From Buchnera aphidicola (Aphis glycines) (GTDB lineage: Bacteria > Pseudomonadota > Gammaproteobacteria > Enterobacterales > Enterobacteriaceae), in the NCBI RefSeq assembly GCF_001280225.1, contig NZ_CP009253.1:186001-250000 (forward strand): a DNA stretch of 64,000 bases, given 5' to 3'. Position numbers and translations under genes: made by a program. This document shows positions 11,052 to 56,179 of this stretch, in pieces; positions within the stretch are counted from its first letter, which is position 1; each line of letters starts with the position of its first letter. Below the pieces are notes generated by a model. It was not told the DNA's origin and did not search any database. It was given only the letters and a program-made list of their open reading frames with translations.

Positions 11052-11716
11052 ATGAATACTAGTTTAACTTGGAAAGATATTTTATCTCAAGAAAAAAAAA
11101 ATATTTTTTTAATATGATGCATTATATTAAAAAAGAACGTTTAAAAAAAATAATATATCCTTCTTCAAAAAACATGTTTAATGCTTTTTTATTAACGTCT
11201 TTCAATGAAATTAAAGTAGTTATTATTGGTCAGGATCCTTATTTTTCAAAAGATCAAGCTAATGGTTTAGCATTTTCAGTGTTTAAAAATAAAAATATAC
11301 CACCTTCTTTGAAAAATATATATAAAGAATTAAATAATGATTTTAGAAAAAAATATACATTTCATCATGGTTGTCTTGAAAATTGGGCAAAACAAGGAGT
11401 ATTTTTATTAAATACTATTTTAACGGTTGAATCAGGAAAACCAAAATCTCATAACAATATAGGATGGGAAATATTTACTGATAAAGTAATTTCTTATATT
11501 AGTCAATATAAAAAATCTATTGTTTTTTTGCTTTGGGGAAGTCACGCTCAGAAAAAATATAATTTAATTGATATTAATAAACACTATATATTGAAATCAT
11601 CTCATCCATCTCCATTATCAGCTCATCGAGGTTTTTTCGGATGCAAACATTTTTCTAAAACTAATAAAATATTAATTAAATGTAAAAAAAAAGAAATTAA
11701 TTGGTTTAATATCTAA
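11052..11716 (+). CDS. ung: Uracil-DNA glycosylase, frameshifted in poly(A)
   Basis: Ung removes uracil from DNA after cytosine deamination. The ATG at 11052 begins MNTSLTWKDILSQEKK, matching the family N terminus, but the frame then hits a stop at about 11110. The run of 10 A at 11092-11101 needs one more A to join this N terminus to the rest (YFFNMMHYIKKERLKK onward). After the shift all key motifs are intact: GQDPYFSKDQANGLAFSV, LLNTILTVE, and SSHPSPLSAHRGF. Joined length is about 221 residues. An alternative TTG at 11069 is in the downstream frame but would discard the conserved TW-x-D start. Function may persist by slippage at the A tract or be lost. Confidence 0.9.
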
Positions 11717-11727
11717 CTTAATATAAG

Positions 11728-11762
11728 AAAATAGAAAAAATTTAAAAAATTTTTTCTATTTT
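11728..11762. terminator. Bidirectional terminator between ung and grpE
   Basis: A perfect 16-bp inverted repeat (11728-11743 with 11747-11762) with a 3-base loop lies between the convergent ung and grpE genes. It is flanked by A-rich sequence on the left and T-rich sequence on the right, giving a U tract in either transcript. Confidence 0.8.
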
Positions 11763-11807
11763 TTGTGTTAAATATTATAATTATTTTTAATTAGAAATAT
11801 AAATATT

Positions 11808-12383
11808 TTAAATTTTAGAAATCGTTACTAATGCTTTTCGAATAACAACATTATTAAAGCTTAAGCCTATTCTTTTGATTGAAACGACATGATCGGGTTG
11901 TATTTCTGTTGAATTTTCGGTTAATATAACATTGTGAATTTTTGGATTAAAAACTTCATTTTCTTTACCCTCGGTTTTTACTCCAAATTTATATATTATT
12001 TGAAATAAAGACTCTAATATTAATTTTATGCCTTGTACTAATGGTTTTTTATCTAAATTTAATTTTTTAGATAAAGACAAAGTATCTTCTAAAGAATTAA
12101 TAATAGGAACTATTTTTTTAAAGAATTCTTCTTTTTTTGTATTTTTTATATTTTTTATTTTTATTTTAGCATCTTTTTCAATATTTTCTATATTAGCTAA
12201 GTGTCTTAATTGTATATCATGTATTTTTTTTTGATTATTAGATAGTTGTTCTTTTAATTTAATTAATTGGTTGATGTGGTTTTTTTTAATATCAGAATTA
12301 TTATTTATGTTTTTTTCAACGTCTTTTTTTACATCTTTTATTTCGATATTTTTATTTGTGCGTTGTTTTTCTTCAGTATCCAT
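11808..12383 (-). CDS. grpE: Nucleotide exchange factor GrpE
   Basis: GrpE releases ADP from DnaK and so resets the chaperone cycle. It has 191 residues (E. coli 197). The N terminus is very charged and flexible (many Lys, Asn, Asp), followed by a long coiled coil (about residues 40-100) and the beta domain with the conserved EVFNPKIHNVIL and SFNNVVIRKALVTI segments. It is divergent from nadK; the roughly 108 bp between them must carry both promoters. I could not identify a convincing heat-shock promoter for it. Confidence 0.94.
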   Translation of the reverse strand: MDTEEKQRTNKNIEIKDVKKDVEKNINNNSDIKKNHINQLIKLKEQLSNNQKKIHDIQLRHLANIENIEKDAKIKIKNIKNTKKEEFFKKIVPIINSLEDTLSLSKKLNLDKKPLVQGIKLILESLFQIIYKFGVKTEGKENEVFNPKIHNVILTENSTEIQPDHVVSIKRIGLSFNNVVIRKALVTISKI

Positions 12384-12491
12384 AATATCACCGTTTTAAA
12401 CACTACTGATTAGTTAAATATAGATTTATTGATATGTCTTTTAAGTTGATTCATATATGAATTATATATATTCATTAGGGATTTTAATATA

Positions 12492-13370
12492 ATGAAGCAA
12501 TATTTTAATTGTATCGGTATTGTTGGGCGCCCTCGTTATACTAATGCGTTGAAAACACATGAGATACTTTATAGATGGCTAATTAAAAGAGGTTATAAGG
12601 TTTTTATTGAATGTAATATTTCCAAAAAATTAAAGTTAAAAAATCCAAAAACTGCTACATTAATAGAAATTGGTCAACTTTGCGACTTAGCTATAGTAAT
12701 TGGTGGAGATGGAAACTTATTGTGCACTGCTCGAATTTTATCATATTTCAATATTAAAATCATTGGTATTAATCGAGGTAATTTAGGTTTTTTAACAGAT
12801 TTAAACCCTGATAATCGATTTAAAAAACTATCAGAAGTTTTATCTGGAAACTATTTTATAGAACATCGTTTTTTATTAGATGTAAAAATTTATAATAAAA
12901 AAAAGCTTTACAAATCTAGCATAGCTGTTAATGAGGTTGTTTTACATCCTAAACATGTAGCTCATATGATAGAATTTGAAGTTTATATTGATAAAAAGTT
13001 TGCTTTTTCACAACGTTCAGATGGATTAATTGTTTCAACTCCTACTGGTTCTACGGGTTATTCACTTTCTGCGGGAGGTCCAATTATAGTAACTTCTTTA
13101 GAGGCGATATTGTTAATACCTATGTTTCCTCATACTTTATCAGCTCGGCCGTTAGTTATTAGTAGTGACAGTATCATTTGTTTAAAATTTTCTAATTTAG
13201 AGAAAGGTTTAAAAATTAGTTGTGATAGCCAAATAGTTTTTCCTATTAATAAAAACGAATATATTTTGCTTCAAAAAAGTAATTATTTTTTAAGTTTTGT
13301 ACATCCTAAAAGTTATAACTATTTTGACACTTTAACTTCGAAACTAAATTGGTCTAAAAAATTTTTTTAA
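12492..13370 (+). CDS. nadK: NAD kinase
   Basis: NadK phosphorylates NAD to NADP and is the only route to NADP. It has 292 residues, the same as E. coli. The ATP/NAD-binding motif [11 protein letters not shown] is seen near residue 75, [11 protein letters not shown] follows, and the conserved [22 protein letters not shown] segment is complete. It is monocistronic, and 157 A+T-rich bp separate it from bamE. Confidence 0.96.
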
Positions 13371-13527
13371 GAATTATATAATATTTTTTTAATATATGAA
13401 ATATAAATATATATAATGTATAAATATAATTTAACAAAAAATTTTTAGTTATATTGTGTATGAAAACATTACTAAACAATTGGTAGTGTGAAATATTTGA
13501 TATAAAATATTAGGAAATAATTTATTA

Positions 13528-13854
13528 ATGAATATTCAGGTTTCTATAATTAAAATATTATCAATAATTTTTTTGTTGACTAGTTGTTCATTTTTAAGTA
13601 ATAAAAATTATAACTCTTATAATATAGATGAACTATACTTAAATTTGAGTGATTTTAAAAAAAATTATAAAGGCATGACGAGAGCGCAAATAATTTATAT
13701 TTTTGGCAATCCGATAATTTCTGATGCTTTTAATGATGTTTATCATTATATTTTTTGTAAAAGATTGAAAAACAATATATGTGAAAAAATTACATTAAAT
13801 ATTTTTTTTGAAGAAGATAAAGTTTGTTCTTTTAGTCTTGAAAAACTTAAATAA
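13528..13854 (+). CDS. bamE: Outer-membrane assembly lipoprotein BamE (SmpA)
   Basis: BamE is a small lipoprotein of the Bam complex that inserts beta-barrel proteins into the outer membrane. It has a hydrophobic signal segment (KILSIIFLLTS) and a lipobox ending at Cys20, so about 88 mature residues. The SmpA/OmlA core is seen in YKGMTRAQIIYIFGNPIISDAFN, matching the family GMTR...G.P pattern, and a hydrophobic strand KITLNIFFEEDKV near the end. Length of 108 compares with 113 in E. coli. Sequence outside the core is poorly conserved. It converges on ssrA, with 20 bp between them. Confidence 0.86.
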   Translation: MNIQVSIIKILSIIFLLTSCSFLSNKNYNSYNIDELYLNLSDFKKNYKGMTRAQIIYIFGNPIISDAFNDVYHYIFCKRLKNNICEKITLNIFFEEDKVCSFSLEKLK

Positions 13855-13874
13855 ATTTTAATATTTAAAAATTT

Positions 13875-14246
13875 TGGAGCTGGCGGGATTTGAACCCGCG
13901 TCCAAAATTTCTATAAACAAAGATACTACATGCTTAGTTTTTCTTAGTTTTTAGTTCTTTTCCTAATTTAGAAAAACACAATTTTAGGAGTATATCTTAA
14001 AAATATTTTTTCGTGTTATTATTAAGATTTATTTCACGTTTTCTCTTTAATCGATTAACCTTTAATAATTTCTCGTTATAAAAGAGATAATATTGAGAAT
14101 AAAGGGCATTAAAACAGTTTTTTAAGCTGCTAATGCGTAGTTTTGTTTATTATTTGCAGCTATTTTTTACGGCTTTTTACGAGGCAAACCGTTCCTCGGC
14201 ATGCACTTTATTTTTTTGATAATTTTGTCGAATCCAAAACAGCCCC
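13875..14246 (-). ncRNA. ssrA: Transfer-messenger RNA (tmRNA)
   Basis: tmRNA rescues stalled ribosomes by acting as both tRNA and mRNA. The 5' end GGGGCTGTTTTGGATTCGAC starts at 14246. The 3' end contains the T-arm with TTCAAATC and the acceptor strand AGCTCC, which pairs with GGGGCT. The tag frame is at 14157-14122 and reads ANNKQNYALAA followed by TAA, with the proteolysis signal YALAA typical of gammaproteobacteria. The genome reads A-AAA after AGCTCC, so the terminal CCA does not appear to be encoded and would have to be added. Length is about 372 nt before CCA addition. Confidence 0.95.
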
Positions 14247-14255
14247 ATATAAATG

Positions 14256-14284
14256 ATAATATAAACTATTAAAATAAATATTAA
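14256..14284 (-). promoter_or_regulatory. Putative sigma-70 promoter for ssrA
   Basis: On the minus strand a TTAATA (14284-14279) and a TATTAT (14261-14256) are separated by 17 bases, and the tmRNA 5' end lies 10 bases further on. Spacing fits a housekeeping promoter, but in sequence this A+T-rich such matches arise by chance. Confidence 0.4.
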
Positions 14285-14410
14285 TACAGTATCAAATATC
14301 TTAGTATTGCAAAAAAAAATAAAGTTGTCTATAAAATATTTTAGAAAATATTTAAACTTTAAAATTATTTAAATATTTTTAGATTCATAAACTTTAAAGT
14401 GGAGTAATGT

Positions 14411-14743
14411 ATGGATATAATTAAAAAAATAGAAAATCAAATTAAAAAAAATATTATTTTACTTTATATGAAAGGAACGCCAGATGCTCCTAGCTGTGGA
14501 TTCTCTGCTCAAGCTGTTCAAGCTTTGTCAGCATGTGGAGAAAAATTTGCATACGTAAACGTTTTGGAGAATGAAGATATTAGAAGGGAATTACCTAAGT
14601 ATGCAAATTGGCCTACATTTCCCCAGTTATGGGTAGATGGAGAGCTTATAGGAGGTTGTAGTATTATAATAGAAATGTTACAAAATGGAGAGTTAAATAA
14701 GATAATATCTACAACAATTAGTAAATATAAAAATAACGTTTAA
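14411..14743 (+). CDS. grxD: Monothiol glutaredoxin, CGFS type
   Basis: Grx4/GrxD is a monothiol glutaredoxin that binds and transfers [2Fe-2S] clusters, working with iron-sulfur assembly proteins. The active-site motif CGFS starts at Cys29 within GTPDAPSCGFSAQAV. The glutathione-binding WPTFPQLWVDGELIGG segment is intact. Its 110 residues fit the single-domain bacterial form (E. coli 115). A GGAG-type ribosome site (AGTGGAGTA) precedes the ATG by a few bases. It is a single gene ending in a hairpin shared with rnt. Confidence 0.95.
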   Translation: MDIIKKIENQIKKNIILLYMKGTPDAPSCGFSAQAVQALSACGEKFAYVNVLENEDIRRELPKYANWPTFPQLWVDGELIGGCSIIIEMLQNGELNKIISTTISKYKNNV

Positions 14744-14763
14744 TTTATAAAATTATTTTAAAA

Positions 14764-14809
14764 AAGATATGATATTTTAATAATAAATTTATTATTGATA
14801 TCATATCTT
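14764..14809. terminator. Bidirectional terminator between grxD and rnt
   Basis: A perfect 12-bp repeat (14764-14775 with 14798-14809) encloses a second, nested A/T inverted repeat (about 14779-14796). It is centred between the convergent grxD and rnt stops, with A-rich and T-rich flanks. Confidence 0.75.
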
Positions 14810-14837
14810 GTTACAATTTTTAAATATTATTGTGATG

Positions 14838-15488
14838 TTAAGAGGATTTTTTTTTTGTATTTATTGGCCATCCGCCTAGGTATTTCCAACGATTAACTAG
14901 TTCGCAAAAAAGATTTGCAGTTTGCAGCGTGTCGTAGAGAGCGGAATGAGCTTGATTATTATCAAATTTTAATCCAACGGCTTTACATGCTTTTGCTAAA
15001 ACTGTTTCTCCAACTACTAATGCACTTAGTGCTGCAGTATCAAATGTAACGAATGGATGAAAAGGATTGTTTTTAATTTGAACTCTTTGTATTGCAGACA
15101 TTAAAAAATTATGATCGAAGCTAGCATTGTGAGCAACTACAATACCTTTTTTACAGCCTTCTATTTTTATCCCCTTATTTACTGTGTCTAATATTGATTG
15201 AATAGCTAATTTTTCACTAATAGCACCGCGCAATGGATTAAATGGATCAATTTTATTAAATGCAATTGCATCGGAATTAATCATGGAGCCTTTAAAAGGT
15301 TTGATATGAAAGTGAAGTGTATTTTTTGTATGTAACCATCCTAATTTATCCATTTTTAATGTTATTAATGCAATTTCTAATAATGCATCAGTTTTTGAAT
15401 TGAAGCCAGCTGTTTCAATATCAATAACAACAGGATAAAAATTACGAAATCGATTACTTAATAAATTAAACTCTTGCGTTATAGACAT
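14838..15488 (-). CDS. rnt: Ribonuclease T
   Basis: RNase T is a DEDD-family 3'-5' exonuclease that trims tRNA CCA turnover ends and matures 5S and 23S rRNA. The first acidic motif is VIDIETAGF near residue 21, the second is in [14 protein letters not shown], and the third is near [13 protein letters not shown]. It has 216 residues (E. coli 215). Retention of RNase T fits the need for CCA-end processing in a genome where CCA ends may be added after transcription. Confidence 0.95.
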
Positions 15489-15686
15489 TTACATCTCATT
15501 TAAAAAACTGTTATTTTTATTGAATAAAATTAATTTTTCACTCTGGTGTATTTAAATACTATTTTATATATTTATTATGATTCTTGTTTATTATGCGATA
15601 ATTGTACTATAATTTAACACGAAATTTAAAATGAAATTTTTTAATTTAATTTTTGTTTAAACTATATTTTTTAATAGGAAAATAAA

Positions 15687-16298
15687 ATGACTTATGTTTT
15701 GCCTGCTATACCTTATTCATATGATGCTTTAGAGCCTTATTTTGATGAAAAAACAATGAAAATACATCACACGAAACATCATCAAAATTATATTAATAAC
15801 ACCAATGCTATTTTAGAAAATACAGCTTTCTCTTCTCTTTCAATTGAAGAACTGATGTCTATATTTAATGAAATCAGTTTAGAAAATAAAAATATATTAC
15901 GTAATAATGCTGGTGGACATATAAATCATTGTTTTTTCTGGGAATGTTTAAAAATTAATACTGTATTAAATAGAAATATCAAATCAGAATTAGAAAAAAA
16001 TTTCGGAACTTTTGAATCTTTCCAGAATCAATTTGAAGAAGTTGCTATGAAACATTTTGGTTCAGGTTGGGTTTGGTTAGTCAATCAAAATGGTCACTTA
16101 AATATAGTATCGACTTCTAATCAAGATAATCCGTTAATGGGAAAGCTTATATCTAATACTTACGGTGATCCTATTTTAGGTTTAGATATTTGGGAGCATG
16201 CATATTATTTAAAATATCAAAATAAAAAACTAGATTATATTAAAGCATTTTGGAATGTGGTGAATTGGAATCAAGTAGACAGTCGTTTACAAAAATAA
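15687..16298 (+). CDS. sodA: Superoxide dismutase [Mn]
   Basis: SodA disproportionates superoxide in the cytoplasm. The metal ligands are visible: His27 in [13 protein letters not shown], the second His in [11 protein letters not shown], and Asp and His in [16 protein letters not shown]. The Gln-containing SNQDNPLMG loop is typical of Mn enzymes rather than Fe enzymes. It has 203 residues (E. coli 206). A purine-rich AGGAAAATAAA precedes the start. It ends in a hairpin terminator before pth. Confidence 0.95.
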
Positions 16299-16347
16299 TA
16301 TTTTTATTAATTACGTTTTTAATAAATACAATATTTAAATTTATATC

Positions 16348-16382
16348 TTAAAACATATAATATTTGATATTATATGTTTTAA
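16348..16382 (+). terminator. Terminator hairpin after sodA
   Basis: An A/T inverted repeat with 16 paired positions (16348-16363 with 16367-16382) and a 3-base loop follows the sodA stop by 50 bp and ends 21 bp before the pth start. It probably separates sodA from pth-ychF. Confidence 0.65.
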
Positions 16383-16403
16383 TAAAATATTAAAGGATTA
16401 TTT

Positions 16404-16955
16404 TTGAGTATTATTAAAATGATTACAGGATTATCTAATCCTAAAAATACATATCACAATACACGTCACAACCTAGGCTCTTGGTATATTTATGCTTTAG
16501 CAAAAAATTTTAATATATTATTAAAAGAAGAAAAAAAATTTTTTGGTTTCATCACTTCTATTAGAATATATTCTAATAATATTCGTTTATTTATACCTAA
16601 TATTTTTATGAATATTAATGGTAACGCGATACATAAAGTAGCATCATTTTATAATATTAATTTAGATGAAATATTAGTCGCGCATGATGATTTAGATTTA
16701 GAGTGCGGAACAGCAAAAATAAAGTATAGTTATGGACATGGCGGCCATAACGGCTTAAGAAGTATTATTAATCATTTTAACAAAAAAATTAATTTTTATA
16801 GATTTAGAATTGGTATTAGTCGACCAAAAAACAAAAAAGAAATATCATCTTTTGTACTTTCAAATCCTACCACCGAAGAAACCAATTTAATTGATATATC
16901 TATTCAGTACGCTATAAGAGAAACACTGGTATTGTTAAACAAGATGTCTAATTAG
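16404..16955 (+). CDS. pth: Peptidyl-tRNA hydrolase (TTG start)
   Basis: Pth recycles peptidyl-tRNAs that drop off ribosomes. I take the TTG at 16404 as start: AAAGGA at 16392-16397 lies 6 bases upstream, and the resulting [13 protein letters not shown] aligns with the E. coli N terminus, whereas the first ATG (16419) would remove a conserved strand and be 21 bases from the ribosome site. The catalytic His is in NTRHNLGSW and the second motif is [10 protein letters not shown], with [11 protein letters not shown] following. It has 183 residues against 194 in E. coli, shorter at the C terminus. It is 54 bp before ychF, the same order as in E. coli. Confidence 0.94.
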
Positions 16956-17009
16956 ATAAAAATTTTTTATGATTTTAGAATAAAATTATTCATTGTAAGG
17001 TGTATAAGT

Positions 17010-18098
17010 ATGGGTTTTAAATGTGGTATTATAGGACTTCCAAATGTAGGTAAATCTACTTTGTTTAATGCCTTAACTAAAGGAAATTCCACTGTTGCAA
17101 ATTTTCCATTTTGCACTATTAAACCAAATATTGGAATAGTTTCAGTGCCTGATACTCGTATCGATGAGCTTTCTAAAATTGTTACCCCTAAAAAGACAGT
17201 ACATGCATATATAGAATTTGTAGATATTGCTGGTTTAGTTAAAGGCGCTTCTAAAGGTGAAGGTTTAGGAAATCAATTTTTAAGTAATATTCGAGATACT
17301 CAAGCTATTATACATGTTGTACGTTGTTTTCAAGATGCAAATATTAGTCATGTGTATAATGATGTTCAACCTAAAAATGATGTAGATATAATCAATTCTG
17401 AATTAATATTATCTGATTTTAATACTTGTGAAAAATCTATATTAAGATTGCAAAAAAATTTGAAATACAATATTAAAGAGCAAGAAAAAATATTGATTGT
17501 TTTAAAAAAATGTATGAATCATTTAAAAAATTTTTTAATGCTGAAAACTTTAAAGTTAAATAACGTAGAAAAAAATATAGTCAATGATTTTCGATTTTTA
17601 ACTTTAAAACCAACAATGTATATTGCAAATATTAATGAAGATAAAAAATCTTTAACTTTTTTAAATGAATTAAATAAAATAGCAGAACAAGATAATTCTT
17701 TGGTTATTCCCATTTCTTCTAAGTTAGAATTAGATTTAATTAATATGAATAAAACAGATCAAAAAGATTTTATGAAGGCTTTTGATATACCACATCTAGG
17801 TTTAAATAAAATTATTCAATGTGGTTATAAAATGCTTGATTTAATCACTTTTTTTACAGTTGGAGTCAAGGAAATTCATGCTTGGCCTATATCTAATGGT
17901 AGTACCAGTATTCAAGCTGCTCATAAAATTCATAGTGATTTTAGTAAAGGTTTTATTCGTGCTCAAATTATTCAGTATCTAGATTTTATTCAATATAAAA
18001 GCGAATCAAAAGTGAAAGAAGTAGGTAAATGCAGGATTGAAGGAAAAGATTATAAAATGAAAGATGGAGATATTGTAAACTTTTTATTTAATATTTAA
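17010..18098 (+). CDS. ychF: Redox-regulated ATPase YchF (Obg family)
   Basis: YchF is a ribosome-associated Obg-family P-loop protein that prefers ATP over GTP. The G1 motif is GLPNVGKST, the G3 region is DIAGLVKGASKGEGLGNQFL, and the C-terminal TGS-like domain is seen as FFTVGVKEIHAWPI through YKMKDGDIVNFLFNI. It has 362 residues (E. coli 363). It is likely transcribed with pth and ends before a G+C-richer hairpin. Confidence 0.96.
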   Translation: MGFKCGIIGLPNVGKSTLFNALTKGNSTVANFPFCTIKPNIGIVSVPDTRIDELSKIVTPKKTVHAYIEFVDIAGLVKGASKGEGLGNQFLSNIRDTQAIIHVVRCFQDANISHVYNDVQPKNDVDIINSELILSDFNTCEKSILRLQKNLKYNIKEQEKILIVLKKCMNHLKNFLMLKTLKLNNVEKNIVNDFRFLTLKPTMYIANINEDKKSLTFLNELNKIAEQDNSLVIPISSKLELDLINMNKTDQKDFMKAFDIPHLGLNKIIQCGYKMLDLITFFTVGVKEIHAWPISNGSTSIQAAHKIHSDFSKGFIRAQIIQYLDFIQYKSESKVKEVGKCRIEGKDYKMKDGDIVNFLFNI

Positions 18099-18151
18099 AA
18101 TAATTTAATTATTTTTAAAATTGATTATATTTTTAATTGATGCTTTTTTCG

Positions 18152-18177
18152 TTAGAGAGGAAGATTCTCCTCTCTAA
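18152..18177. terminator. Terminator hairpin between ychF and thrC
   Basis: A perfect 10-bp stem (18152-18161 with 18168-18177, arm TTAGAGAGGA) with a 6-base loop follows ychF and is followed by a T-rich stretch in the plus direction. The thrC stop is 5 bp away, so it may also end the thr operon, although the minus-direction U tract is weak. Confidence 0.75.
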
Positions 18178-18181
18178 TTCT

Positions 18182-19471: not shown

Positions 19472-19474
19472 TTG

Positions 19475-20404: not shown

Positions 20405-20425
20405 TACTGTGCTCCACACTGACGT

Positions 20426-25775: not shown

Positions 25776-25785
25776 CATCTATATA

Positions 25786-26508: not shown

Positions 26509-27320
26509 ATGATGAAAAAAGAAGTAAAAAAAATTGCTTTAGGAATAGAATATGATGGAGCATATTACCATGGTTGGCAACGCCAAAAAAATTGCTCTTC
26601 TATTCAAGAAGAAATAGAGCTATGTTTATCTAAAATTGCAAATCATAAAGTGCATGTTATTTGCGCCGGTAGAACTGACACTGGAGTTCACAGCATAGGA
26701 CAGGTGATTCATTTTGAAACTATTTCTACGAGAAGCCAATATGCCTGGACAGTTGGGGTAAATACTTACTTATCTAAAAATATTTCAATACAATGGGCTA
26801 GAGAAGTTCCTATTTATTTTCATGCTTGTCGAAGTGCTATTAGACGTACTTATCGATATTTAATCTATAATTCTGTTTGTCGTTCTAGTATTGTATATAA
26901 AAAATCTAATCATGTTTATCAAAAATTAAATGTTTTAAAAATGCACTCTGAAGCACAGCATTTACTAGGTAATCATAATTTTTCTTCTTTTCGAGCATCA
27001 GGCTGTCAATCTTATTCACCTCAAAAAGAAATTACGAAAATTAATGTTTATTCTATTAACGATTTTGTCATTGTTGATATTACAGCAAATTCTTTTCTAT
27101 ATCATATGGTTCGTAATATTGTTGGTTCTTTAATACAAATTAACTTTATAAAAAAGGACAATGTAATGAAAAATTTATTAAAAAAAAAAATCGAAATTAT
27201 GCAGGTCCTACTGCTCCAGCTAAAGGTTTGTATTTATTATCTGTGGAGTATCCAGACTGTTTTAACTTACCAAAATTTAAAGATATTTTATTAAAATATA
27301 ATAATTATTTTTTCAAGTAA
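26509..27320 (+). CDS. truA: tRNA pseudouridine synthase A, frameshifted near 3' end
   Basis: TruA makes pseudouridine at tRNA positions 38-40. The catalytic Asp is in [18 protein letters not shown], and [14 protein letters not shown] [12 protein letters not shown] is intact. After LLKKK the frame shifts at a run of 10 A (27181-27190): one extra A would restore [22 protein letters not shown], the conserved C terminus, ending at TAA 27318-27320 and giving 270 residues, exactly the E. coli length. Without the shift the protein ends at 27294 with about 35 unrelated residues and lacks a conserved part of the core. Function may depend on slippage. Confidence 0.92.
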
Positions 27321-27329: not shown

Positions 27330-29500
27330 GAAAATTTATATTAATTTTTCAACAAAATATATTTTTTAATCTAAGATATTTGAATTAATCAAATTTTATC
27401 ATATGTGGATAAAAAATTATTAAAAAATTTTTATTCTAACGTTGATTGTAATAATTTTTTATGTTGTTCTATACATGAAATCAGCTATGCAATAAATATC
27501 AAGTATAGCAGTGTCCTAATTCAATGTATATTTGAATAATCGATTTAGAACTAAACAATTTATTTTTTCAAAAAAAATTTGAATATTTTTAAAAATTACA
27601 ATGTATAAAAAATTTAATAAAATTACGATACTTGAAAATATCGTCTAAAAAATAAAATATAGAATTTATACGTCCTATTTTAATTTTCCAAATACTAACG
27701 AAAAAGTAATTTATGTCAGATTAGTTTTTAACAAAAATTTTTTATGAAAAATTAAAAACATTGAAAATTATTGTAATTTTAATTTTTTTTCGATTAAAAC
27801 ATAAATTAATTAGTATATTAAAATTTTTTAAAAAGAGAAAACGCATTTTTACCTGATCTAAATATCTTGTTATTTTAATTAAAATATTATTAGGAAGAGA
27901 AGATAAAAAATTTTATAACTATGATAGTATTAATATATCATTTATGACGCCAGCGTTATTAGTTAATATTGTAGTAGAACAAATACAAGGAAGTAGAACA
28001 TTTTCCTAACAGTTAATTAAAAATCTTTTTCTAAAAAATACTTGTTCGATATTAAAAAAGTCAATGAAATACAATGGTGTTGATTTTTAATGGATTTTAT
28101 AAGTAAAATTGCATTTTACAATTATATTCAAATAAAGTTTATTTATGACAAGATGGTAATCAGAAGATGTAAAGCGTCTCCCTGGCTGGTTGTGTTTATT
28201 TGACTGATTAATTAATAAATTAAACTTAGATCAACGTACTTTACTAGTTAGTATAGTTAGAGGTTCTTCTTTATATCATTTTTTAAGATATTGAGAATTA
28301 GCTCGAGATAGAAGAAATTTAGTTTTTTGACTTCTTCATTAAAGTTGAATTAAAAAACTTACTTATAACTGTATAAAAAACATTTAAAGATTTATATAAA
28401 AAGCATTTATTATTTCAGAATATGCAAATTTTCCAAAACTTGTTCGAATGGAATGCAAATAACAATTAAAAAATTAAGATAAAAACTGGGAAGGTTTAAA
28501 AATATTTACTACTTTAGACTTTTTATCTTACAATACTGTTAAAAAGTTGTTACAGTAAGTGCGCTTGAATTAAAAAAATTAAAAGATTTAGAAATTGAAA
28601 TGATTTTAGTATATAAATTTAGCGGTGATATCAATGCTCTAGTTTAGTAGTTCTCATTCAACGTCATATATTTATAATTGGGTTTTACAAGCTCATCGTT
28701 CAATTCGTTATTTATCTAAATCTGTTATTTGCTTATAAGTTTTATCTAATCCTAAAAATATCATTTTAAACATTGGGTATATAATGATCCTTTTTCAATC
28801 AAACTAGAAAATGGTATATATAGGATTTCTCAAAATAATAATTATCAATTTAATAAAAACGAGTAATTTTTTTAGAGGGATGAACTCATTCTATCAATAC
28901 ACTCATAGTTAATTGAAGTATCGATATAAGTTTAAGTTCATTAATAAAAAATTGGATTCATTTTTGTGTTTATGGGAAATATTTAAATTGTTTTCCTTCG
29001 ATTTCACTGGATTCGATTAATTTAATACCTATTGAAATTATGCGAATTTTTTAATTAATTCTGAATAAAGGATGTAATGCATTCATATCTTCAGTAAAAT
29101 TTATTATTTCTGATAATAGAAAGATATTATATCAAATTTTATTGCAATTTAAAAAAATAGCTTTTTCTGAATCGGAATATATAACAGTATATGATACGTA
29201 CAAAGTTACCATTTTTAGAGTAGCTAAATTTTTAGGCCAGTTATTTTCAAATTCATCTTTAACTAGAAACACTAGTACTACAAATAATTTAGTAAATATT
29301 TAACTTATAGGTATAGGTTGAGAGCATGTTGTATTTATTTGGATAAGTCGAGATAGTAATAAGTCGGATAAATTATATAGATTTTATAGAGTAATGCAAG
29401 TTTACTAAAAATATCTTGAATATCTATGTCTGATTCTATTAATATTAAATCCTTCGAAAAATATCTGTATATTTTGATATAAATAATAATAAAAAATTAT
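27330..29500 (+). pseudogene. mrcB: Decayed mrcB (penicillin-binding protein 1b)
   Basis: This 2.45-kb gap between truA and secA has no open frame, yet translated pieces match PBP1b in order. From 27896: REDKKFYNYDSINISF, then VVEQIQGSRTFS-stop-QLIKNLFL (transglycosylase, like ATEDRHFYEHD and STLTQQLVKNLF). From 28218: KLNLDQRTLLVSIVRGSSLY and ELARDRRNLVF. Near 28620: FSGDINALV. Near 28670-28770: YNWVLQAHRSIRYLSKS. Near 29000: SISLDSINLIPIEIMRIF. From 29262: TRNTSTTNNLVN and ISRDSNKSDKLY (like KTGTTNNNVDTW). Many stops and frame changes separate them, and the transpeptidase Ser of SxxK reads Tyr (28709-28711). Bounds are approximate; the N-terminal part is unrecognisable. Confidence 0.88.
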
Positions 29501-29771
29501 TTTAAAAAAATAGTAAGTATACAGAATCAATAACGATATAATTCGTAAATATTAAAATTTATACAATAAAATATGTTCAATAGTACTAAGAACATAGTCA
29601 GTATAAAAATTCTTTGTTTTAAGTGGAAATTTTTATATACATTTAATTTTGATTTTTTTAATTAATAAATATCAAGTTTGATAGATGTTTCAAAATACAT
29701 GAATGTATTTATTATAAATTATATAAAAAATTATTAAATTACAATAAAAAATATAATTTGAGAGTTGTAAT

Positions 29772-32390: not shown

Positions 32391-32449
32391 TTGTATAATG
32401 CAATATATTATTTGAATTTATATTCAATTTTATGACTTAAACACAGTTG

Positions 32450-32800
32450 AAATTGGAATAATTTTCAAAAAAAAATTTTATATTATCAAATCTAATCACA
32501 TTAAATATAAGACAAAAATTTGGGAATGTCTCGCTGGGAAAACAAAAAACAATGCAAATATTATATGTAGATGAAAACGTAAAATATTAGAAGAGTTCAG
32601 CATAATAATATTAAAATTTCACTTTTTTCATATTAAGATGTTTCTTTTAAAAAATTAAATTATATTTTTTATAATTCAAAAATGGGAAGGTAGAGCATTT
32701 AACCAAGAATGTTATAATTATATTTAGATTGATTTTAAAAAACTAAAATTTAACATGTTTATAAGTGCTAATTTTATCGAAATTAAAAATTAAAAACATT
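32450..32800 (+). pseudogene. mutT: Decayed mutT (8-oxo-dGTP diphosphatase)
   Basis: The 429 bp between secA and coaE has no usable frame, but fragments resemble MutT in its conserved position after secA. From about 32450: VEIGIIFKKKFYIIKSNH (like VGIIRNENNEIFITRR). From about 32680: KWEGRAFNQE, then IDFKKLKFNMFISANFIEI (like RWEGEPWGKEG and LNADDFPPANEPVI). The region that should hold the Nudix box (GX5EX7REUXEE) has stops and no match. The assignment rests on weak matches plus synteny. Confidence 0.72.
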
Positions 32801-32819
32801 AAGTAAATATTGACATTAA

Positions 32820-47260: not shown

Positions 47261-47271
47261 ATTATCACTTT

Positions 47272-48705
47272 TTATTTTTTGATGAAAATTTTATTAGCTA
47301 CTTTTTCTATATCTCCAGCGCCTTGTATTAAAATAATATCATTTCCGTTTAAATAAGGGGCAATTAAATTTAATATTATTTTATGATTTTTAATTAAAAT
47401 TACATTCATATTTTTTATTTTTTTTATATCTTTTAAAAGTGTTTTACTATCTGCTCCAGAAATAATATTTTCATTAGCAGAATAAACATCTAACATGAAT
47501 AATATATCTACTTGTGACAAAACATTAACAAAGTCATCATATAAGTTATATGTTCTTGTATATCGATGAGGTTGAAATATCATTATTAAATTTTTTTTAG
47601 GCCAACTAGTTCTTATTGTTTTAATATTTTGAGATATTTCGGTAGGATGATGACCATAGTCGTCTATTAACATAATATTTTTTTTGAAAACGTTACTTTT
47701 TTTTATTGATATTTTTCCAAGATATTCAAATCTTCTATAAGTACCTTGAAAATTTTTTAATGATTTCAAAATTTTTTGATCAGATATTTGTTTATATGTT
47801 GCAATAGCTATTGCGGCTGTTGCATTTAAAGCGTTATGTTTTCCAGGAATTTTTAAAGTAACTGATAAATTGAATTGTTTTTTCCGAACCAAAGTAAAAT
47901 ATGAAATGAAATTAGTTTGTTTATAGCAAGAAATACAAAATTCAGAATTTTTATTAAATCCATATGTAATTATTTTACATTTTATTTTTGGAATTATTTC
48001 TTGTATAGCAGTATTATCTATACATAATATCACAGTACTATCTAATGGAATTGTGCTGATAAACTTTAAAAATGATTTTTTTAACAAATTAAAATCGTTA
48101 TTGTAATAGTTCATATGTTCAGGTTCGATATTCGTTACAATGATAATTTTGGGGGTTAAATAAAGAAATGAACTATCACTTTCGTCTGCTTCTACGATAA
48201 GATAATCGGAATTTCCTAATTTAGAATAAGAATTAATTGACCTAATTAAACCACCATTAATAACAGTAGGGTCTAATTTATTTTCATTAAATATGTCAAA
48301 AATCATTGAAGTAGTCGTTGTTTTTCCATGTGTTCCAGAAATAGCTATTCCAAATTTATCCTGCATTAGCATTTTTAGCATTTCTGCTCTTAATAATATG
48401 GGAATTTTTTTTTTTTTTGCTTCTATAATTTCTGGATTAGTCAATGGAATTGCACTAGATATGACAATCAAGTCAATATTTTTAATATGTTTTTTAGCAT
48501 GATGAAAATAAATAATTGCACCTAATTTTTTTAATTTTTCTGTAATTTCGTTTTTTACAAGATCTGAACCGCTAATTTTATATCCTAATTGTAATAAAAT
48601 CAAAGCGATTCCATTCATTCCAGAACCTCCGATTCCTATGAAATGAATTTTATTAAACTTTTTGTTTTTTAAAAAGTTAGTTTCTTTTATACGTATAATA
48701 TTCAT
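47272..48705 (-). CDS. murC: UDP-N-acetylmuramate--L-alanine ligase
   Basis: MurC adds L-Ala to UDP-MurNAc. The N-terminal Rossmann motif is [14 protein letters not shown]; the P-loop is [15 protein letters not shown]; the EADESDSSF and [13 protein letters not shown] segments are intact. It has 477 residues (E. coli 491). It carries the longest A tract I found in a coding region, 14 A on the coding strand (48405-48418), encoding KKKK within [11 protein letters not shown], yet remains in frame. Confidence 0.96.
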
Positions 48706-48729
48706 TTTATATATTTAATTGTTAACAAT

Positions 48730-49791: not shown

Positions 49792-50944
49792 TCAATCTTC
49801 CTTAGGTAACGCTTGATTTTCACTTAATCTTAGTTCAAAATCAATTCTTAATAAAATACAAATAGCAATTAAATTCACAATTAAGCTGGAACCTCCATAG
49901 CTGATTAATGGTAAGGTTAGTCCTTTAGTTGGTAATATTCCAGTCACAGCGCCAATGTTAATTAATGTTTGAAAACTAAACCATAACCCAATAGAGCAAG
50001 CTAAAAAACCTGAAAAAATTGCTTTTTTCTTTAAAGATTTTTGTCCAATATACAGAGCTCGAAAAGCAATAATAAAAATACCTAATAATATTGAAAAGCA
50101 ACCTATATAACCCAATTCTTCTCCTATAATAGAAAATATGAAATCACTGTGGGCTTCTGGTAAATAATTTAATTTTTGTATCGAATTTCCTAAACCTTGC
50201 CCGAAAAAATGACCCCTTCCTAAAGCGATTAATGATTGTGTTAATTGATATCCATTACCAAAAGGATCCTGCCAAGGATTCCAGAATGATAATATTCTAT
50301 TAATACGATATGGTTTTGTGAATATTAAAAATATTATTATTACTGCAACTATAAAAATAATTAAAAAAAATTGTTTTATTTTTGCTCCAGAAAGAAATAA
50401 AATTGATAAAGTAGTAAGAAATAAAACAACTACAGTTCCTAAGTCAGGTTCTGCTAGTAAAAGAACTGATTGCATAGCAACAATACTCATGGGTTTAAAA
50501 AAACCCCAAAAATTTTTGTTGACTTCTTTAATTTTTCTCGAAAGATAATTAGAAATATAAAGAAAAGAAGAAATTTTACATATTTCAGAAGGCTGTATAT
50601 GCAATATACCTATACTGATCCATCTATATGATCCATGCACTGATTTTCCCAATAATAGTACGAAAATGAGTGATAGAGTTGACAATATTAGTATAAAGTT
50701 ACTATATTTTCTCCAAAAAACAACAGGTATTCTCAAAACAAAAAAAGATAATAAAAATATTAAAATAAAATAAAATACTTCTCTTTTCGCGAAAAAAAAT
50801 GGGTCTTGATATAAATTCTGTCCTATCGGTATGGATGTGGATATGACCATTATTAATCCAGTAATACATAAAGATAAAGTGAGCCATACTAGTAATCTAT
50901 CATATAATACAATGTTTTTTTTTTTATTTTTTTTTTAGAAACAT
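49792..50944 (-). CDS. ftsW: Lipid II polymerase FtsW, frameshifted at its start
   Basis: FtsW is the SEDS-family glycosyltransferase of the septum, with about ten membrane segments. A start ATG at 50944 overlaps the murD stop (TAATG) but meets a TAA after six codons because of two A tracts (10 and 11 A; plus-strand T runs 50927-50936 and 50915-50925). Removing one A gives MFLKKNKKKNIVLYDRLL, in frame with the rest, for 383 residues. Otherwise translation would need the internal ATG at 50850, losing about 30 residues of cytoplasmic tail and first membrane helix. Downstream motifs (LIALGRGHFFGQGLGNS, LPEAHSDFIFSIIGEELG) are intact. Confidence 0.93.
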
Positions 50945-52263
50945 TAATTTATTTCCTTTAATAATTTTATAAAAAGATTACCTCTTTCTTCAAAATTTTT
51001 AAATTGATCTTTACTACTACAACCAGGAGATAAAAGTATTACATCATCTTGTTTGGCTTGTTTCGAAATTAAAGTAATGGCATCTTTTAAATTTTTAACA
51101 TAAATAGATTTTTTTTGACATATTTGAGCTATATTCATACCGTCTTTACCAAAACAATAGATTTTAATTTTTAATTGTTCTAAATAATTTTTTAGAATGT
51201 TAAAATCAGCAGATTTTTTATCTCCTCCTAATAGCAACCATATTGTTCCTGGAGTTTTAATGTTTTTTAAAGCTATTTTAGTACTACTAACATTAGTAGA
51301 TTTTGAATCATTAATCCAAGATATGTTATTATTTTTATGTACTATTTGGAAGCGATGTGGTAAATTTTTAAAAAATTTAAGTACATTTTTAACTATATTC
51401 CGAGGAAAATGCATAGCATCTGAAATTGCTAATGCAACTAAAGCGTTTTCATAGTTTTGATATCCATATAGTAAAGTTTGTGATGTATCAATTATTTTTT
51501 CTTTTTTATGACATAAAAAATTATTTCCTTTTATATTTTCAATATAATAATTACTATTACTTGTTCCAAATGTAATATACTTTTTTTGTTTGTTTTTAAA
51601 GAAACAATTTTTTTCTTTTAAATTTACTAAGCATATTTCTGCATTTTTATAAATAGATAATTTAATTTTTTTATACTGTTTGAATCCTTTTGGATATCTA
51701 TCTAAATGATCTTCGTTAATATTCAGTACTACAGCTATTTTTGATTTTAAACTAAATATATTTTCAAGTTGAAAACTAGATAACTCTAGTATATATAAGT
51801 CAGCTTTTTTTGATAATACATTTAACGCTGGAAGTCCAATATTACCTATTAAATAAACTTTATATCCTGATTTTTTTGCAATTTCTTTCACCATTGTTGC
51901 TACAGTACTTTTTCCATTAGTACCAGTAATAGAAATGATTGGAGATTTCACTTCTCTAACAAATAGTTCAATATCACTGATTATTTCAATACCTAGCATA
52001 CGAGCTTCTGTTAAAATAGGTTTAAACGAAGAAATTCCAGGACTTATGATAATTAAATCTGATTCTAAAATCCATTTTTTTTCTAAACCTCCTAATTTAT
52101 ATTTAATATTTTTAGGAATTTTTTCTAAATACTCAGGTTTTTTAGATTCATCAATTATTTTTGGAATTGCTCCTTTTTTGAGAAAAAAATTAATACAAGA
52201 TATACCAGTCAATCCTATACCTAAAATTAATATTTTTTTTTCTGAATACTTATATGGCATCAT
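50944..52263 (-). CDS. murD: UDP-MurNAc-L-alanine--D-glutamate ligase
   Basis: MurD adds D-Glu to UDP-MurNAc-L-Ala. The N-terminal domain shows ILILGIGLTGISCINFF; the P-loop is ISITGTNGKSTVATMV; ELSSFQLE and WINDSKSTNVSST follow. It has 439 residues (E. coli 438). The 5' end overlaps mraY by 11-14 bases depending on which of two adjacent ATGs is used. Its stop overlaps the ftsW start as TAATG, so translation is coupled. Confidence 0.96.
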   Translation of the reverse strand: MMPYKYSEKKILILGIGLTGISCINFFLKKGAIPKIIDESKKPEYLEKIPKNIKYKLGGLEKKWILESDLIIISPGISSFKPILTEARMLGIEIISDIELFVREVKSPIISITGTNGKSTVATMVKEIAKKSGYKVYLIGNIGLPALNVLSKKADLYILELSSFQLENIFSLKSKIAVVLNINEDHLDRYPKGFKQYKKIKLSIYKNAEICLVNLKEKNCFFKNKQKKYITFGTSNSNYYIENIKGNNFLCHKKEKIIDTSQTLLYGYQNYENALVALAISDAMHFPRNIVKNVLKFFKNLPHRFQIVHKNNNISWINDSKSTNVSSTKIALKNIKTPGTIWLLLGGDKKSADFNILKNYLEQLKIKIYCFGKDGMNIAQICQKKSIYVKNLKDAITLISKQAKQDDVILLSPGCSSKDQFKNFEERGNLFIKLLKEIN

Positions 52264-53326
52264 GTATCCTTAAAGATATAATTCCTATTAGTAACAATAT
52301 GAAAGATACTATCCAAAATCTAATAGTAATCAAATTTTCTGACAATCCTTTTATTTCGTAATGATGATGAAGTGGGGCCATCTTAAACATTCTTTTTTTT
52401 TTAAATTTAAAGTAGGCAATTTGTAATATTACAGATATAGTTTCAACAACAAAAATTCCACCCATTATTAACAATAATAATTCTTGATGTAATAATATAG
52501 ATATGATTCCTAAAGCACCACCTAACGATAAAGATCCAACATCACCCATGAATATTTTAGCAGGATAAGCATTAAACCATAAAAAACCTAATCCAGAACC
52601 AACTATGGATGCACATAAAACACTTAATTCATTTGCTTGTTTTAAATGAAAAATATTTATATCATTGCGTAAACAATTTTCAGAACTAAGAAAAGCAATT
52701 AAACCTAATCCAGATGAGATAAAAATTACTGGCATTATTGCTAATCCATCTAATCCATCTGTTAAATTCACACTATTACTTGTGCCTACAATAACAAAAT
52801 AAGATAAAAAGATATAAAAATAATTAATTTTTACTATTATTTTCTTATAAAACGGAATTATTAACTCAAGATCAATTTTATTTGCTTGATTGAGATGCAT
52901 AATATAAATAATAAATATAGCAATAATAGATAATCCAAAAAATTTATATAATACTTTTAATCCATGTGAGTTGTTAAATTTAATTTTTTTATAATCATCT
53001 AAAAATCCAATCACACCATATCCTAAGATAATAAAAATAACATACCAAATATATACATTGTATAAATCACAATAAAGAAGAACAGATAAACATATTGATA
53101 TAATAATTAATATTCCTCCCATAGTAGGAGTTGTATTTTTCTTTAAATGTCCGATAGGTCCATTAGTTCTTATTATTTGAAAATTTTGTAATTTTTTAAA
53201 ACAAGATATTATATACGGACCAATAAATAAATTTATAAAAAATGATGTAATCAAACTAAAAATTATTCGGTAAGAAATAAAATTAAATATTTTAAAATTT
53301 AAACATTTATTAATTAAAAATATCAT
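52250..53326 (-). CDS. mraY: Phospho-N-acetylmuramoyl-pentapeptide transferase
   Basis: MraY forms lipid I in the inner membrane from UDP-MurNAc-pentapeptide and undecaprenyl phosphate. It has about ten hydrophobic segments and the conserved cytoplasmic motifs KKNTTPTMGGILI, GFLDDYKKI, NLTDGLDGLA, FMGDVGSLSLGGALG and the histidine-rich APLHHHYE. It has 358 residues (E. coli 360). The 5' end overlaps murF by 17 bases. Confidence 0.96.
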   Translation of the reverse strand: MIFLINKCLNFKIFNFISYRIIFSLITSFFINLFIGPYIISCFKKLQNFQIIRTNGPIGHLKKNTTPTMGGILIIISICLSVLLYCDLYNVYIWYVIFIILGYGVIGFLDDYKKIKFNNSHGLKVLYKFFGLSIIAIFIIYIMHLNQANKIDLELIIPFYKKIIVKINYFYIFLSYFVIVGTSNSVNLTDGLDGLAIMPVIFISSGLGLIAFLSSENCLRNDINIFHLKQANELSVLCASIVGSGLGFLWFNAYPAKIFMGDVGSLSLGGALGIISILLHQELLLLIMGGIFVVETISVILQIAYFKFKKKRMFKMAPLHHHYEIKGLSENLITIRFWIVSFILLLIGIISLRIHDAI

Positions 53327-54691
53327 TTTTTTTATACTCTTTTATTAAATATTCTACAATTGTTTCCATTTTCATATTGCGTGATCCTTTAATTAGAATT
53401 GTAGTGATTTTTTTTCGTGAAATTTTTTCTTTTAATTCTTTCTTTAATAGATGTTTATGTTTTTCTGGAAAATGTTTTCCATTTTTACATATTTTAAAAA
53501 TTTCACGACTATGCTTTCCAAAACTAAAAATATGATCAATATCTGATAAATTAGCAATATTTCCTATGATTTTATGATATAAAATGCTTTTTTCACCTAA
53601 TTCAGCCATATCTCCTACAACTAGTATTTTATAACCTGGCATTTTTTCTAAAATTTTAATTGCTACAATCATAGAAGCAACATTCGAGTTGTATGCATCA
53701 TTAATTAAAGTTTTATTTTCACTCAATTTTATAGATTCTAATCTTCCTGGTATAATCGGAGCTTCTAATAATCCAATTTTAATTTGCTGTAATGGTACAT
53801 TAACTGAAAATGCAAGAGCGCTAGCAGCTAGAGCATTAGATATATTTTGATATCCTATATATGGTAATGTAATGTTTATTTTACCAGCTGGTGTATGCAT
53901 GATAAAACATGTTTGATGTGAATAAATCTTAATATTAGTAACAAAAAAATTACTTTCTTTTTTTTTTCGATAGAAAAATAAAATATTTTTCTATTTTTAA
54001 TTTTTTTTTTCCATTTCGAAAGATGATGGCTGTCTAAATTAATAATTACTATGCTATTATTTTTTAAATAGGAGAATATTTCCGATTTTTCTTTTGATAT
54101 ACCTAGTAATGATTTAAAACCTGCTAAATGCGAATGATAAATATTATTTATTAGTGCTATGTTTGGTTGGGAAATTTTTGAAATGTAACGAATTTCACCA
54201 GGATTATTCGTTCCTAATTCAATTAACCCATATTTATCTGTTGCTTTTAATTTTAATAAAGTAATAGGTACTCCTATGTGATTATTTTCATTGTTTGTTG
54301 TATATATTATATGATGTGTTTTTTGAAGTATAGAAGCTGCCATTTCTTTTACGGAAGTTTTTCCGCAAGATCCAGTAATAGCTAATATTTTCGGTTGAAT
54401 TATATTTCGAAGTAAACTAGCAATCTTTCCTAACGCAATAGTAGTATCTTCAACTATAATATAAGAAATAAAAGATATAATTTTTTTAGTAGTAACGATT
54501 GCACAACATCCTTTCGCCAAAGCTTCTTCGATAAACATATGTCCATCAAATTTATTACCTTTTAATGCAATAAATAATGTATTTGGTAGTATTTTTTTGC
54601 TGTTTATACTGATATGATCTATTGTAATATTTTTTCCATATAGCACACCGTTTGTGATACTAGCAATTTTTTTTAACGACATAGAAATCAT
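53310..54691 (-). CDS. murF: UDP-MurNAc-tripeptide--D-Ala-D-Ala ligase, frameshifted
   Basis: MurF attaches D-Ala-D-Ala to make UDP-MurNAc-pentapeptide. The N-terminal part reads through AITGSCGKTSVKEMAASIL and TNNENNHIGVPITLL to IFYFSIEKKK, where a run of 10 A (plus-strand T 53958-53967) needs one more A to continue as SNFFVTNIKIYSHQTCFIMH into the C-terminal half (NDAYNSNVASMIVAIKIL, LVVGDMAELG). The joined protein is 460 residues (E. coli 452). Both halves are well conserved, so the break is recent or is bypassed by slippage. The start is one base after the murE stop. Confidence 0.94.
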
Positions 54692-54692
54692 G

Positions 54693-56179
54693 TTATTTTT
54701 CCAGTAAATTTAAAATTGTTTCTTGGTCTGAATGGTCAATACGGTGATTACCAATTATTTGATAATTTTCGTGCCCTTTACCAGAAATAAAAATTATATC
54801 ATTAATATTTGATTGAACAAAAACATAAGAAATCGCTTTTTTTCGATTGGGGATAATTATTATTTTTTCTTTTTTTATACAGCCAGCGATAATTTCGTTA
54901 ATAATTATGTTTTGATCTTCATTTCTAGGGTTATCATTAGTAATTATTACTTTATCTGCTATTTTTTCTGCAATTTTACCCATTAAAGGTCGTTTTTTTT
55001 TATCTCTCTCCCCTCCACATCCGAATATACACCATATTTTCTTCTGAGAATATTGCGATTTAATAGAGCTAAGTGCTTGCTTTAAAGCATCAGGAGTATG
55101 AGCATAATCTATAATGCAAATTGGTTTTCTAGAAAAATGAAGTTTTTGCATGCGCCCGTATATTGGTTTAAGTTGAATTGATGTTTTAATTAGATCGGAT
55201 AATTTATAATTCATTTCTAACATACATGCAAGTGCTAATAATAAATTTTCTATATTAAATTTTCCTATTAAACAAGTAGATATCGTACCCGTTCCCCAGC
55301 TAGATTCAAATTGTATATCAGTTTTTCTACTATCAATTTTAATATTAGTTGCATTTATCCATTTTTTAGCATATTTTTTTTGCTTAGAATTTTTAATTGT
55401 TACTGCTACTGTATATTTATTAGGAAAGTTTTTTAACCAGTTTTGTGCATATCTATCATTAGCATTTAATATTATTTTTTTTACTTTGTGATCAGTGAAA
55501 AGAGACAGTTTAGCTAATGCGTACTTTTTCATATTTCCATGATAATCTAAATGATCTTGTGTTAAATTAGTAAATATTGCAATATGAAACGCAATACTTT
55601 TCACGCGGTTCTGCACTAAACCATGCGAAGAAACTTCTATAGTCACTAATTTTACTTGATTTAATACTGAATATAAAAATGATTGTATATCGATAGCCGA
55701 TGAAGTTGTGTTTTTTGTGGGTTTTAAGAAGTTATGAAAACCGTTTCCAAGAGTGCCCATTGTTGCAGTTTTGTTACCTAGTAATTCATTCCACTGATTG
55801 ATTAGTTGTGCTACTGTAGTTTTTCCGTTGGTTCCAGTAATTCCAACTACTTTTAATTGACTGCTTGGTTTACAATAAAATCTTTCAGCTAACATTGAAA
55901 GATTTTTAGCAAGTTCAAAAAAAGATATGACAGGAATATTGTTAATATAATTTATTATCCCATGTTGTTTTTTTTTTTAGTTTCAGATAATACTGCTGTT
56001 ATTTTTTTAGAAATTGCATCAGAAATAAAATCATTTCCGTCTTTTTTCTCGCCTTGTACAGCTATAAACATATCTTGAGATGTTAATTTTCTACTATCTA
56101 AAACTAAATTTTTAATATTTTTTTTCGGAAGATTTTTAACCCAAGGTGATAAAAAATATTTTAAGTTTTTTTCTTTCAT
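54693..56179 (-). CDS. murE: UDP-MurNAc-tripeptide synthetase (DAP-adding), frameshifted
   Basis: MurE adds meso-diaminopimelate to the stem peptide. The N-terminal 71 residues (to VLSETKKK) come from the ATG at 56179; then a run of 11 A (plus-strand T 55968-55978) lacks one A, giving a stop a few codons later. With one more A the protein continues QHGIINYINNIPVISFF into the main part, which has the P-loop GITGTNGKTTVAQL and the DAP-specific DNPRNED motif. Joined length is 495 residues, exactly the E. coli length. The downstream frame alone would miss the uridine-binding N terminus. Confidence 0.95.

Follow-up and report, generated by a model that had tools for sequence, protein, structure and literature searches.

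How does a symbiont keep genes whose reading frames are broken in its DNA? The question is raised by a 64,000-nucleotide stretch of the genome of Buchnera aphidicola from Aphis glycines (RefSeq assembly GCF_001280225.1, contig NZ_CP009253.1, positions 186,001 to 250,000 of the forward strand), hereafter the window. Within it five conserved genes, ung, truA, ftsW, murE and murF, are out of frame at runs of 10 or 11 A on the coding strand. The genome as a whole comprises 638,851 bp in three contigs of 628,164, 7,639 and 3,048 bp. We consider it likely, with a probability of roughly three in four, that the out-of-frame alleles are real, that they lie at A-runs highly prone to mutation in genes still in use, and that their frames are mended by RNA polymerase slippage on those same runs. 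In ung and ftsW, initiation at another codon could contribute.

Reading the surroundings of each run in three frames, together with the Pfam matches of the resulting pieces, confirmed the five frame changes listed in a first-pass annotation of this DNA and also their direction: ung, truA, murF and murE are one A short, and the phase of ftsW is reversed, with one A too many or, what amounts to the same, two too few. The uracil-DNA glycosylase gene ung (11052..11716, + strand; Pfam UDG, E=4.9e-21) leaves its frame about 14 residues past the ATG, at an A10 run (11092..11101) that is one short relative to the downstream frame. In truA (26509..27314, + strand), which encodes a tRNA pseudouridine synthase (Pfam PseudoU_synth_1), the frame is lost about 46 residues ahead of the end, at an A11 run that is one short; this tract occupies 27180..27190 and not 27181-27190 as first annotated, while the remaining tract coordinates stood. 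The gene for the D-Ala-D-Ala-adding Mur ligase, murF (53310..54691, - strand), is out of frame past about 240 residues, at an A10 run (53958..53967) one short. A second A10 run upstream in murF (54001..54010) is read in frame and provides an internal control. The neighbouring murE (54693..56179, - strand), for the diaminopimelate-adding Mur ligase, is out of frame past about 67 residues, at an A11 run (55968..55978) one short; the pieces of both genes match Pfam Mur_ligase domains. In ftsW (49792..50944, - strand; Pfam FTSW_RODA_SPOVE), the ATG that overlaps the murD stop codon is out of frame with the conserved body, and an A11 run (50915..50925) and an A10 run (50927..50936) lie near this start with a single base between them. 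The stop and start overlap as TAATG at 50942-50946, and the ATG is preceded by a Shine-Dalgarno sequence. Since the downstream piece of ftsW spans profile positions 18-353 of 356, the start alone is affected. The further claim that all five genes are conserved on both sides of the shift held for the Pfam-confirmed pieces and needs narrowing for ftsW, affected only at its start, and for ung, where the shift removes only some 14 N-terminal residues and the downstream frame has a TTG start.

The frame changes are concentrated in the longest runs. The window has 14 runs of at least 10, all of them A on the coding strand and all within genes, and six of these are out of frame, every one in the five genes described above. 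Shorter runs in those window genes (A6-A9 and T6-T8) were shifted in 0 of 491 cases (Fisher p = 5e-9, with the two ftsW runs taken as one, the six shifted runs entered by hand from the earlier frame readings, and mrcB, a dead gene considered below, excluded). The longest coding-strand T-run in the window's conserved genes is 8. A frameshift-aware alignment of 55 gene clusters, each present in at least three of six genomes, found no further tract-type shift in the window, in agreement with the first-pass claim that no such shift lies outside long A tracts. The murF shift is itself invisible in this survey because all six genomes compared are broken at murF, and it was seen in a separate alignment.

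To follow these runs over the genus we used a tree of 35 genomes built from eight concatenated proteins, on which the window genome (G000), G016 and G031 form a fully supported clade. The two main clades of the tree supply our tribe labels, Aphidini (n=14) and Macrosiphini (n=21), which are inferred, as are the hosts of the relatives: A. gossypii for G016, A. nasturtii for G031, A. craccivora for G033, A. helianthi for G015, A. nerii for G013, A. aurantii for G022, A. pisum Tokyo for G029, A. kondoi for G002, U. ambrosiae for G017, S. graminum for G001 and R. maidis for G008 (642,929 bp). G025 gave no murE or murF match and was excluded from the cluster analyses. In a census of 14 genes in up to 35 genomes, counting events with at least 20 residues aligned on each side, coding A-runs of 6-8 were shifted once in 3,168 cases, A9 in 2/214, A10 in 23/106, A11 in 24/46, and A12 and longer in 8/30. 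For coding T-runs the figures were 1/123 (T8), 0/88 (T9) and 1/8 (T10), and one shift in the census had no run nearby. T-runs are not immune to shifts: murD of G008 is one base short at about residue 52, at a T8 beside an A7, which is the sole internal T-run shift among the mur genes examined. In G005, ftsW is shifted at a T10.

The direction of the A-run shifts is strongly skewed, with 54 short against 4 long. These are not independent events, 28 of the 54 being the murF run, but counting per tract site still gave 10 sites where short alleles prevail and no site where long ones do (sign test p = 0.002), in a set that does not include ung, truA or the ftsW start. Transcription errors offer a way to read this skew. 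In the data of PMC5574713, 151 of 157 transcription insertions in Buchnera lie in homopolymers. Because insertions dominate transcription errors in Buchnera homopolymers, the direction that has survived, one short, is the one that slippage can repair.

The same alleles recur in other genomes. Of the 35, 29 have the murF run out of frame, 28 of them one short (the window's own included) and one of them one long, and the other 6 have it in frame; all but one of the 29 out-of-frame copies have no second internal break (at least 20 residues on each side), the exception being G019. The truA run is one short at the same A11 in G000, G013, G015, G022 and G033 (5/36 genomes), truA is out of frame at a different run in G007 and G027, and it is in frame in the remaining 29. 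Among the 14 Aphidini genomes, 13 carry an out-of-frame ftsW ATG (10 short, 3 long), and the long phase is common to G000, G016 and G031. The ung run, an A10-A14 in all 35 aligned genomes, is in frame in 14, long in 15 and short in 6; G004 lacked an upstream ung match. Only the murE shift is private to one assembly, being found in the window genome alone among 35, and the sole 100% MurE match in a protein search was the window's own contig. Five further Aphidini genomes of the 14 nevertheless have murE broken at other A-runs.

Breaks were also tabulated by tribe for the wider pathway (at least 16 residues required on each side). Broken copies of murF were found in 14/14 Aphidini and 15/21 Macrosiphini, of murC in 9/14 and 4/21, and of murE in 6/14 and 2/21. 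For ddlB the figures were 0/14 and 7/21, for murD 2/14 and 0/21, and for mraY and ftsI 1/14 and 0/21 each, while murG, ftsA and ftsZ were broken in 0/35 genomes. The ddlB breaks lie at an A10-A11 run (6 short, 1 long) and include that of the A. pisum genome G029. In the window murC (47272..48705, - strand) is in frame through an A14 run (48405-48418), and the homologous run is out of frame in 10/35 genomes. The early phase calls for murC were usable only in G000, G013, G015, G016, G031 and G033, the rest being paralogue noise, and murC was redone with more DNA. Public protein predictions also bear on murF: 43 of 62 MurF sequences end no more than 41 residues from the start of the motif at the lysine run, some of them possibly cut by contig ends. 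Among the early-ending proteins are ones named from symbionts of Meitanaphis and Hormaphis, outside the Aphidinae, for which the data are at the protein level only. Five from divergent symbionts (P0164, P0165, P0167, P0171 and P0172, two of them from Meitanaphis and Hormaphis hosts) stop immediately after the lysine run, hinting that the murF site may break far outside the Aphidinae. P0125, from a 4.5-kb contig and 79% identical to the window MurF, reads through in frame.

If these genes are still used, selection should be visible beyond the runs. Compared with G016, the nearest relative, the ratio of nonsynonymous to synonymous substitution rates (dN/dS) past the run was 0.25 for murF (with both genomes out of frame), 0.115 for truA, 0.21 for murE and 0.125 for ung, and it was 0.12 for the ftsW body. 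Across 49 gene stretches, counting those of broken genes, the median was 0.145, and the dead mrcB gave 0.89. For murF, comparisons with four relatives, all of them also out of frame, gave 0.20-0.33 past the run. G008 and G010, which share three shifts, gave 0.20 for murC, 0.15 for murE and 0.22 for murF past the runs. Ahead of the run in ung, none of the 7 comparable codons had changed. Thus the sequence past the shifts is under purifying selection, although the signal is weak for murE and for the tail of truA.

These genes look like candidates for slippage, each with a single frame change at a coding-strand A-run of about 10 or more. DNA replication would slip at coding A-runs of 10 or longer and alter their length, and RNA polymerase would slip at the same runs to yield a mixed pool of messages. 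From a one-short allele, messages gaining one A would be back in frame and could supply a working amount of full-length protein, such that the allele would be tolerated in the long term. Slippage of this kind has a history in these bacteria, and Tamas et al. 2008 (PNAS) are said to have shown transcriptional slippage at poly(A) tracts rescuing frameshifted genes of Buchnera and Blochmannia, murF reportedly being their immunostained example. Our genes resemble theirs in having a single frame change at about A10, conservation on both sides, purifying selection and a place among the cell-wall genes, murF itself included. They differ in coming from the A. glycines symbiont, in adding ung, truA and the ftsW start, and in being known here from DNA alone.

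Rescue by slippage in Buchnera cell-wall genes is therefore already published, and the present genes add to it. The first-pass annotation had pointed to such reports, and this was borne out: rescue in Buchnera and Blochmannia is described in PMC5009743 and PMC3164680. The former gives 12-50% corrected transcripts in frameshifted cell-wall genes of aphid symbionts and in a gene of an ant symbiont. The latter, from 2011, counts 8-18 homopolymeric frameshifts in each of six genomes from four Aphidinae hosts. Among the Buchnera genes that it lists, murF is affected repeatedly and the S. graminum symbiont supplies the cases in murE and mraY; the paper also describes slippage in the symbiont of R. 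padi. As a useful check, our scan recovered the murF, murE and mraY set in G001, the presumed S. graminum symbiont, plus murC. It is by analogy with this work on other Buchnera that we propose a mixed mRNA pool and rescue for the genes of the window.

Several observations count against this explanation. The ung run has more long alleles than short (14 against 6 on the tree), which goes against a general one-short rule, and the phase of ftsW in the window is not repairable by insertion of a single A. If DNA replication tends to delete bases in long runs, that bias could also produce the excess of short alleles. As to selection, each of the four murF comparisons gave a slightly higher dN/dS past the run (0.20-0.33) than ahead of it (0.14-0.22), the 38-codon tail of truA gave 0.40 against G031, and the murE value says little about selection since the break, that gene being broken only here at this site; more generally, a pairwise dN/dS averages the time before and after a shift. 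In its account of pea-aphid Buchnera, PMC5574713 detected no frame-restoring transcription error. Lastly, with mrcB dead and no SEDS-family gene found besides ftsW, the whole cell-wall pathway of this lineage might be at the onset of decay.

Of the alternatives, the one that fares best concerns ung and ftsW only, and holds that translation starts downstream or at another codon, leaving no frameshift to correct. It is a serious possibility for these two genes, though we would not bet on it. In ung, the TTG of the downstream frame would give a protein of 215 residues. In ftsW, an ATG within the body at 50850 would give 352 residues covering profile positions 18-353, and the upstream start is out of frame in 13 of the 14 Aphidini. 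However, the residues of ung before the run are conserved (the upstream peptide is 100% identical in G016 and G031, and the 7 comparable codons are unchanged), and the overlap of the ftsW ATG with the murD stop fits a coupled start.

A second alternative is that the genes are young pseudogenes on their way out, whose proteins are not made and whose conservation reflects recency. Buchnera loses genes steadily, PMC3164680 counts such cases as inactivations while allowing for slippage, and the slightly higher dN/dS of murF past its run points the same way. The pathway also has a gene that is already dead. This is mrcB (PBP1B; 27394..29641, + strand), which carries 15 scattered shifts and at least 6 stops and was identified through an open copy in G033 with UB2H, Transgly and Transpeptidase domains (Pfam). 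However, mrcB also serves as a control for genuine decay: its constraint is relaxed and disabling changes are scattered along it, and the shifted genes show neither. The one-short state of murF is shared by 28 of 35 genomes and stands at the parsimony root of the tree, and yet the gene keeps a low dN/dS against relatives that are themselves out of frame, with no other internal break in any out-of-frame copy but that of G019. From the selection estimates and the contrast with mrcB, we judge simple pseudogenes unlikely.

Open reading frames of 768-771 residues stand at the mrcB locus in the symbionts that we assign to A. nerii, A. helianthi and A. craccivora, the last having been checked against Pfam. 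The window contains a few other disturbances of frame. In the survey of 55 clusters, two genes, at 3196-4393 and 58250-59254, showed N-terminal events, which we take for start-proximal alignment noise. A poorly conserved open reading frame at 32431-32810, with stops and one shift, aligned at 60% identity to a 133-residue open reading frame of G016 and may be non-coding or a remnant. An all-pairs scan flagged an antisense open reading frame at 54698 and a start-proximal candidate at 16389; the latter was rejected, as the aligned gene at 16419-16952 has no shift.

The frame could instead be restored by the ribosome, through programmed -1 frameshifting on the A-run in the manner of dnaX. The -1 direction fits one-short alleles, and the zero-frame codons of murF, GAA AAA AAA AAG, hold A AAA AAG, a slippery heptamer of -1 frameshifting. 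At murF, the only run examined for stimulators, none was found: a Shine-Dalgarno-like 4-mer occurs within 18 nt upstream of the run in 0/35 genomes, the downstream sequence folds no better than shuffled sequence (mean z +0.47), and no consensus fold was found downstream (consensus energy -0.18). In the published cases, moreover, the RNA itself is heterogeneous (PMC5009743). An unaided contribution of the ribosome at A-runs is possible, but we regard programmed frameshifting as improbable. Finally, homopolymer sequencing or assembly error, with the true DNA in frame, was named as the main alternative in the first-pass annotation and is very improbable: such errors do fall in long A-runs, and an undercalling platform would give one-short reads, but undercalling would be expected in the long runs of every gene, whereas murG, ftsA and ftsZ are never broken, and the shifts recur in the same phase across separate assemblies (murF in 28/35, truA in 5/36, the ftsW phase in three), murF homopolymer frameshifts also being reported from several Buchnera genomes including two new ones with 454 and Illumina data (PMC3164680). 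Error stays in play for murE alone, whose shift is private and for which the MurE protein search found no second A. glycines assembly.

Returning to slippage rescue, another way to view the murF run is as a site that is kept, rather than merely tolerated, in its broken state. PMC3164680 infers four independent inactivations of murF, whereas parsimony on our 35-genome tree places the one-short state at the root, with 7 changes (shuffled mean 6.7). For ung (14 in frame, 14 long and 6 short on the tree), 14 changes are needed against a shuffled mean of 15.1. The ung run has turned over fast, and its phases carry no phylogenetic signal. Such a run can thus lose all phylogenetic signal, and the murF run may likewise mutate too fast for parsimony; the ung run could serve as a clock for run-length mutation. 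With a change count not below the shuffled mean, the data do not choose between a fast and a slow murF run. If murF mutates as fast as ung, 28 short alleles against 6 in frame are unexpected under neutrality; if it mutates slowly, the frameshift is old and shared. Either rate argues for rescue. We suggest, very tentatively and as something we think rather doubtful, that one A short is the normal, selectively kept state of murF, and perhaps of other stem-peptide ligases, across Buchnera, with slippage setting the dose of protein; on that suggestion, the murF run would be held one short while the comparable ung run drifts through three phases.

What do these alleles mean for the cell wall? A six-frame search of the whole genome (E <= 0.001) found one FtsW/RodA-family gene, ftsW, and one transpeptidase, ftsI, and the only transglycosylase match lay in the dead mrcB. 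Any peptidoglycan synthesis in this symbiont is probably the work of FtsW and FtsI, and the start of ftsW is therefore worth checking. A related symbiont poses the question more sharply. In a 2022 study, PMC9116674, murC, murE and murF are called lost although the R. maidis symbiont labels for peptidoglycan, and compensating adaptations and a link to the loss of a host gene are proposed. PMC10591338 repeats the loss reading in its text, and a table there lists murF in 29% of 38 class A Buchnera genomes and murC and murE in 97%. The word slippage is absent from the main text of both papers. The genes and the tribe are those of our analysis, in which murF is broken in 14, murC in 9 and murE in 6 of the 14 Aphidini genomes. 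The two papers treat the genes as absent and suggest compensating ligase activities, whereas in our data the genes exist and are conserved, each with its frame broken at an A-run of at least 10. In G008, the genome assigned to R. maidis, murC, murE and murF are each present and conserved with one internal shift at an A10; its murD shift, at a T8, falls outside what A-run slippage covers. The R. maidis Buchnera assembly was polished with both PacBio and Illumina reads (PMC6451198).

Slippage could thus account for cell-wall synthesis in related symbionts in which genes for it are reported lost, and by analogy with the published cases it would be a simpler answer to the R. maidis puzzle than new adaptations. 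Linking A-run frameshifts to these lost genes looks new, in that no paper joining the two was found in a literature search that largely went without subscription papers and was judged mostly from titles and abstracts. Gene-content studies can drop frameshifted symbiont genes and then read the gaps as lost functions. For AT-rich symbionts we suggest a rule of annotation: when a conserved gene lacks one base in an A-run of at least 10, it should not be counted as missing.

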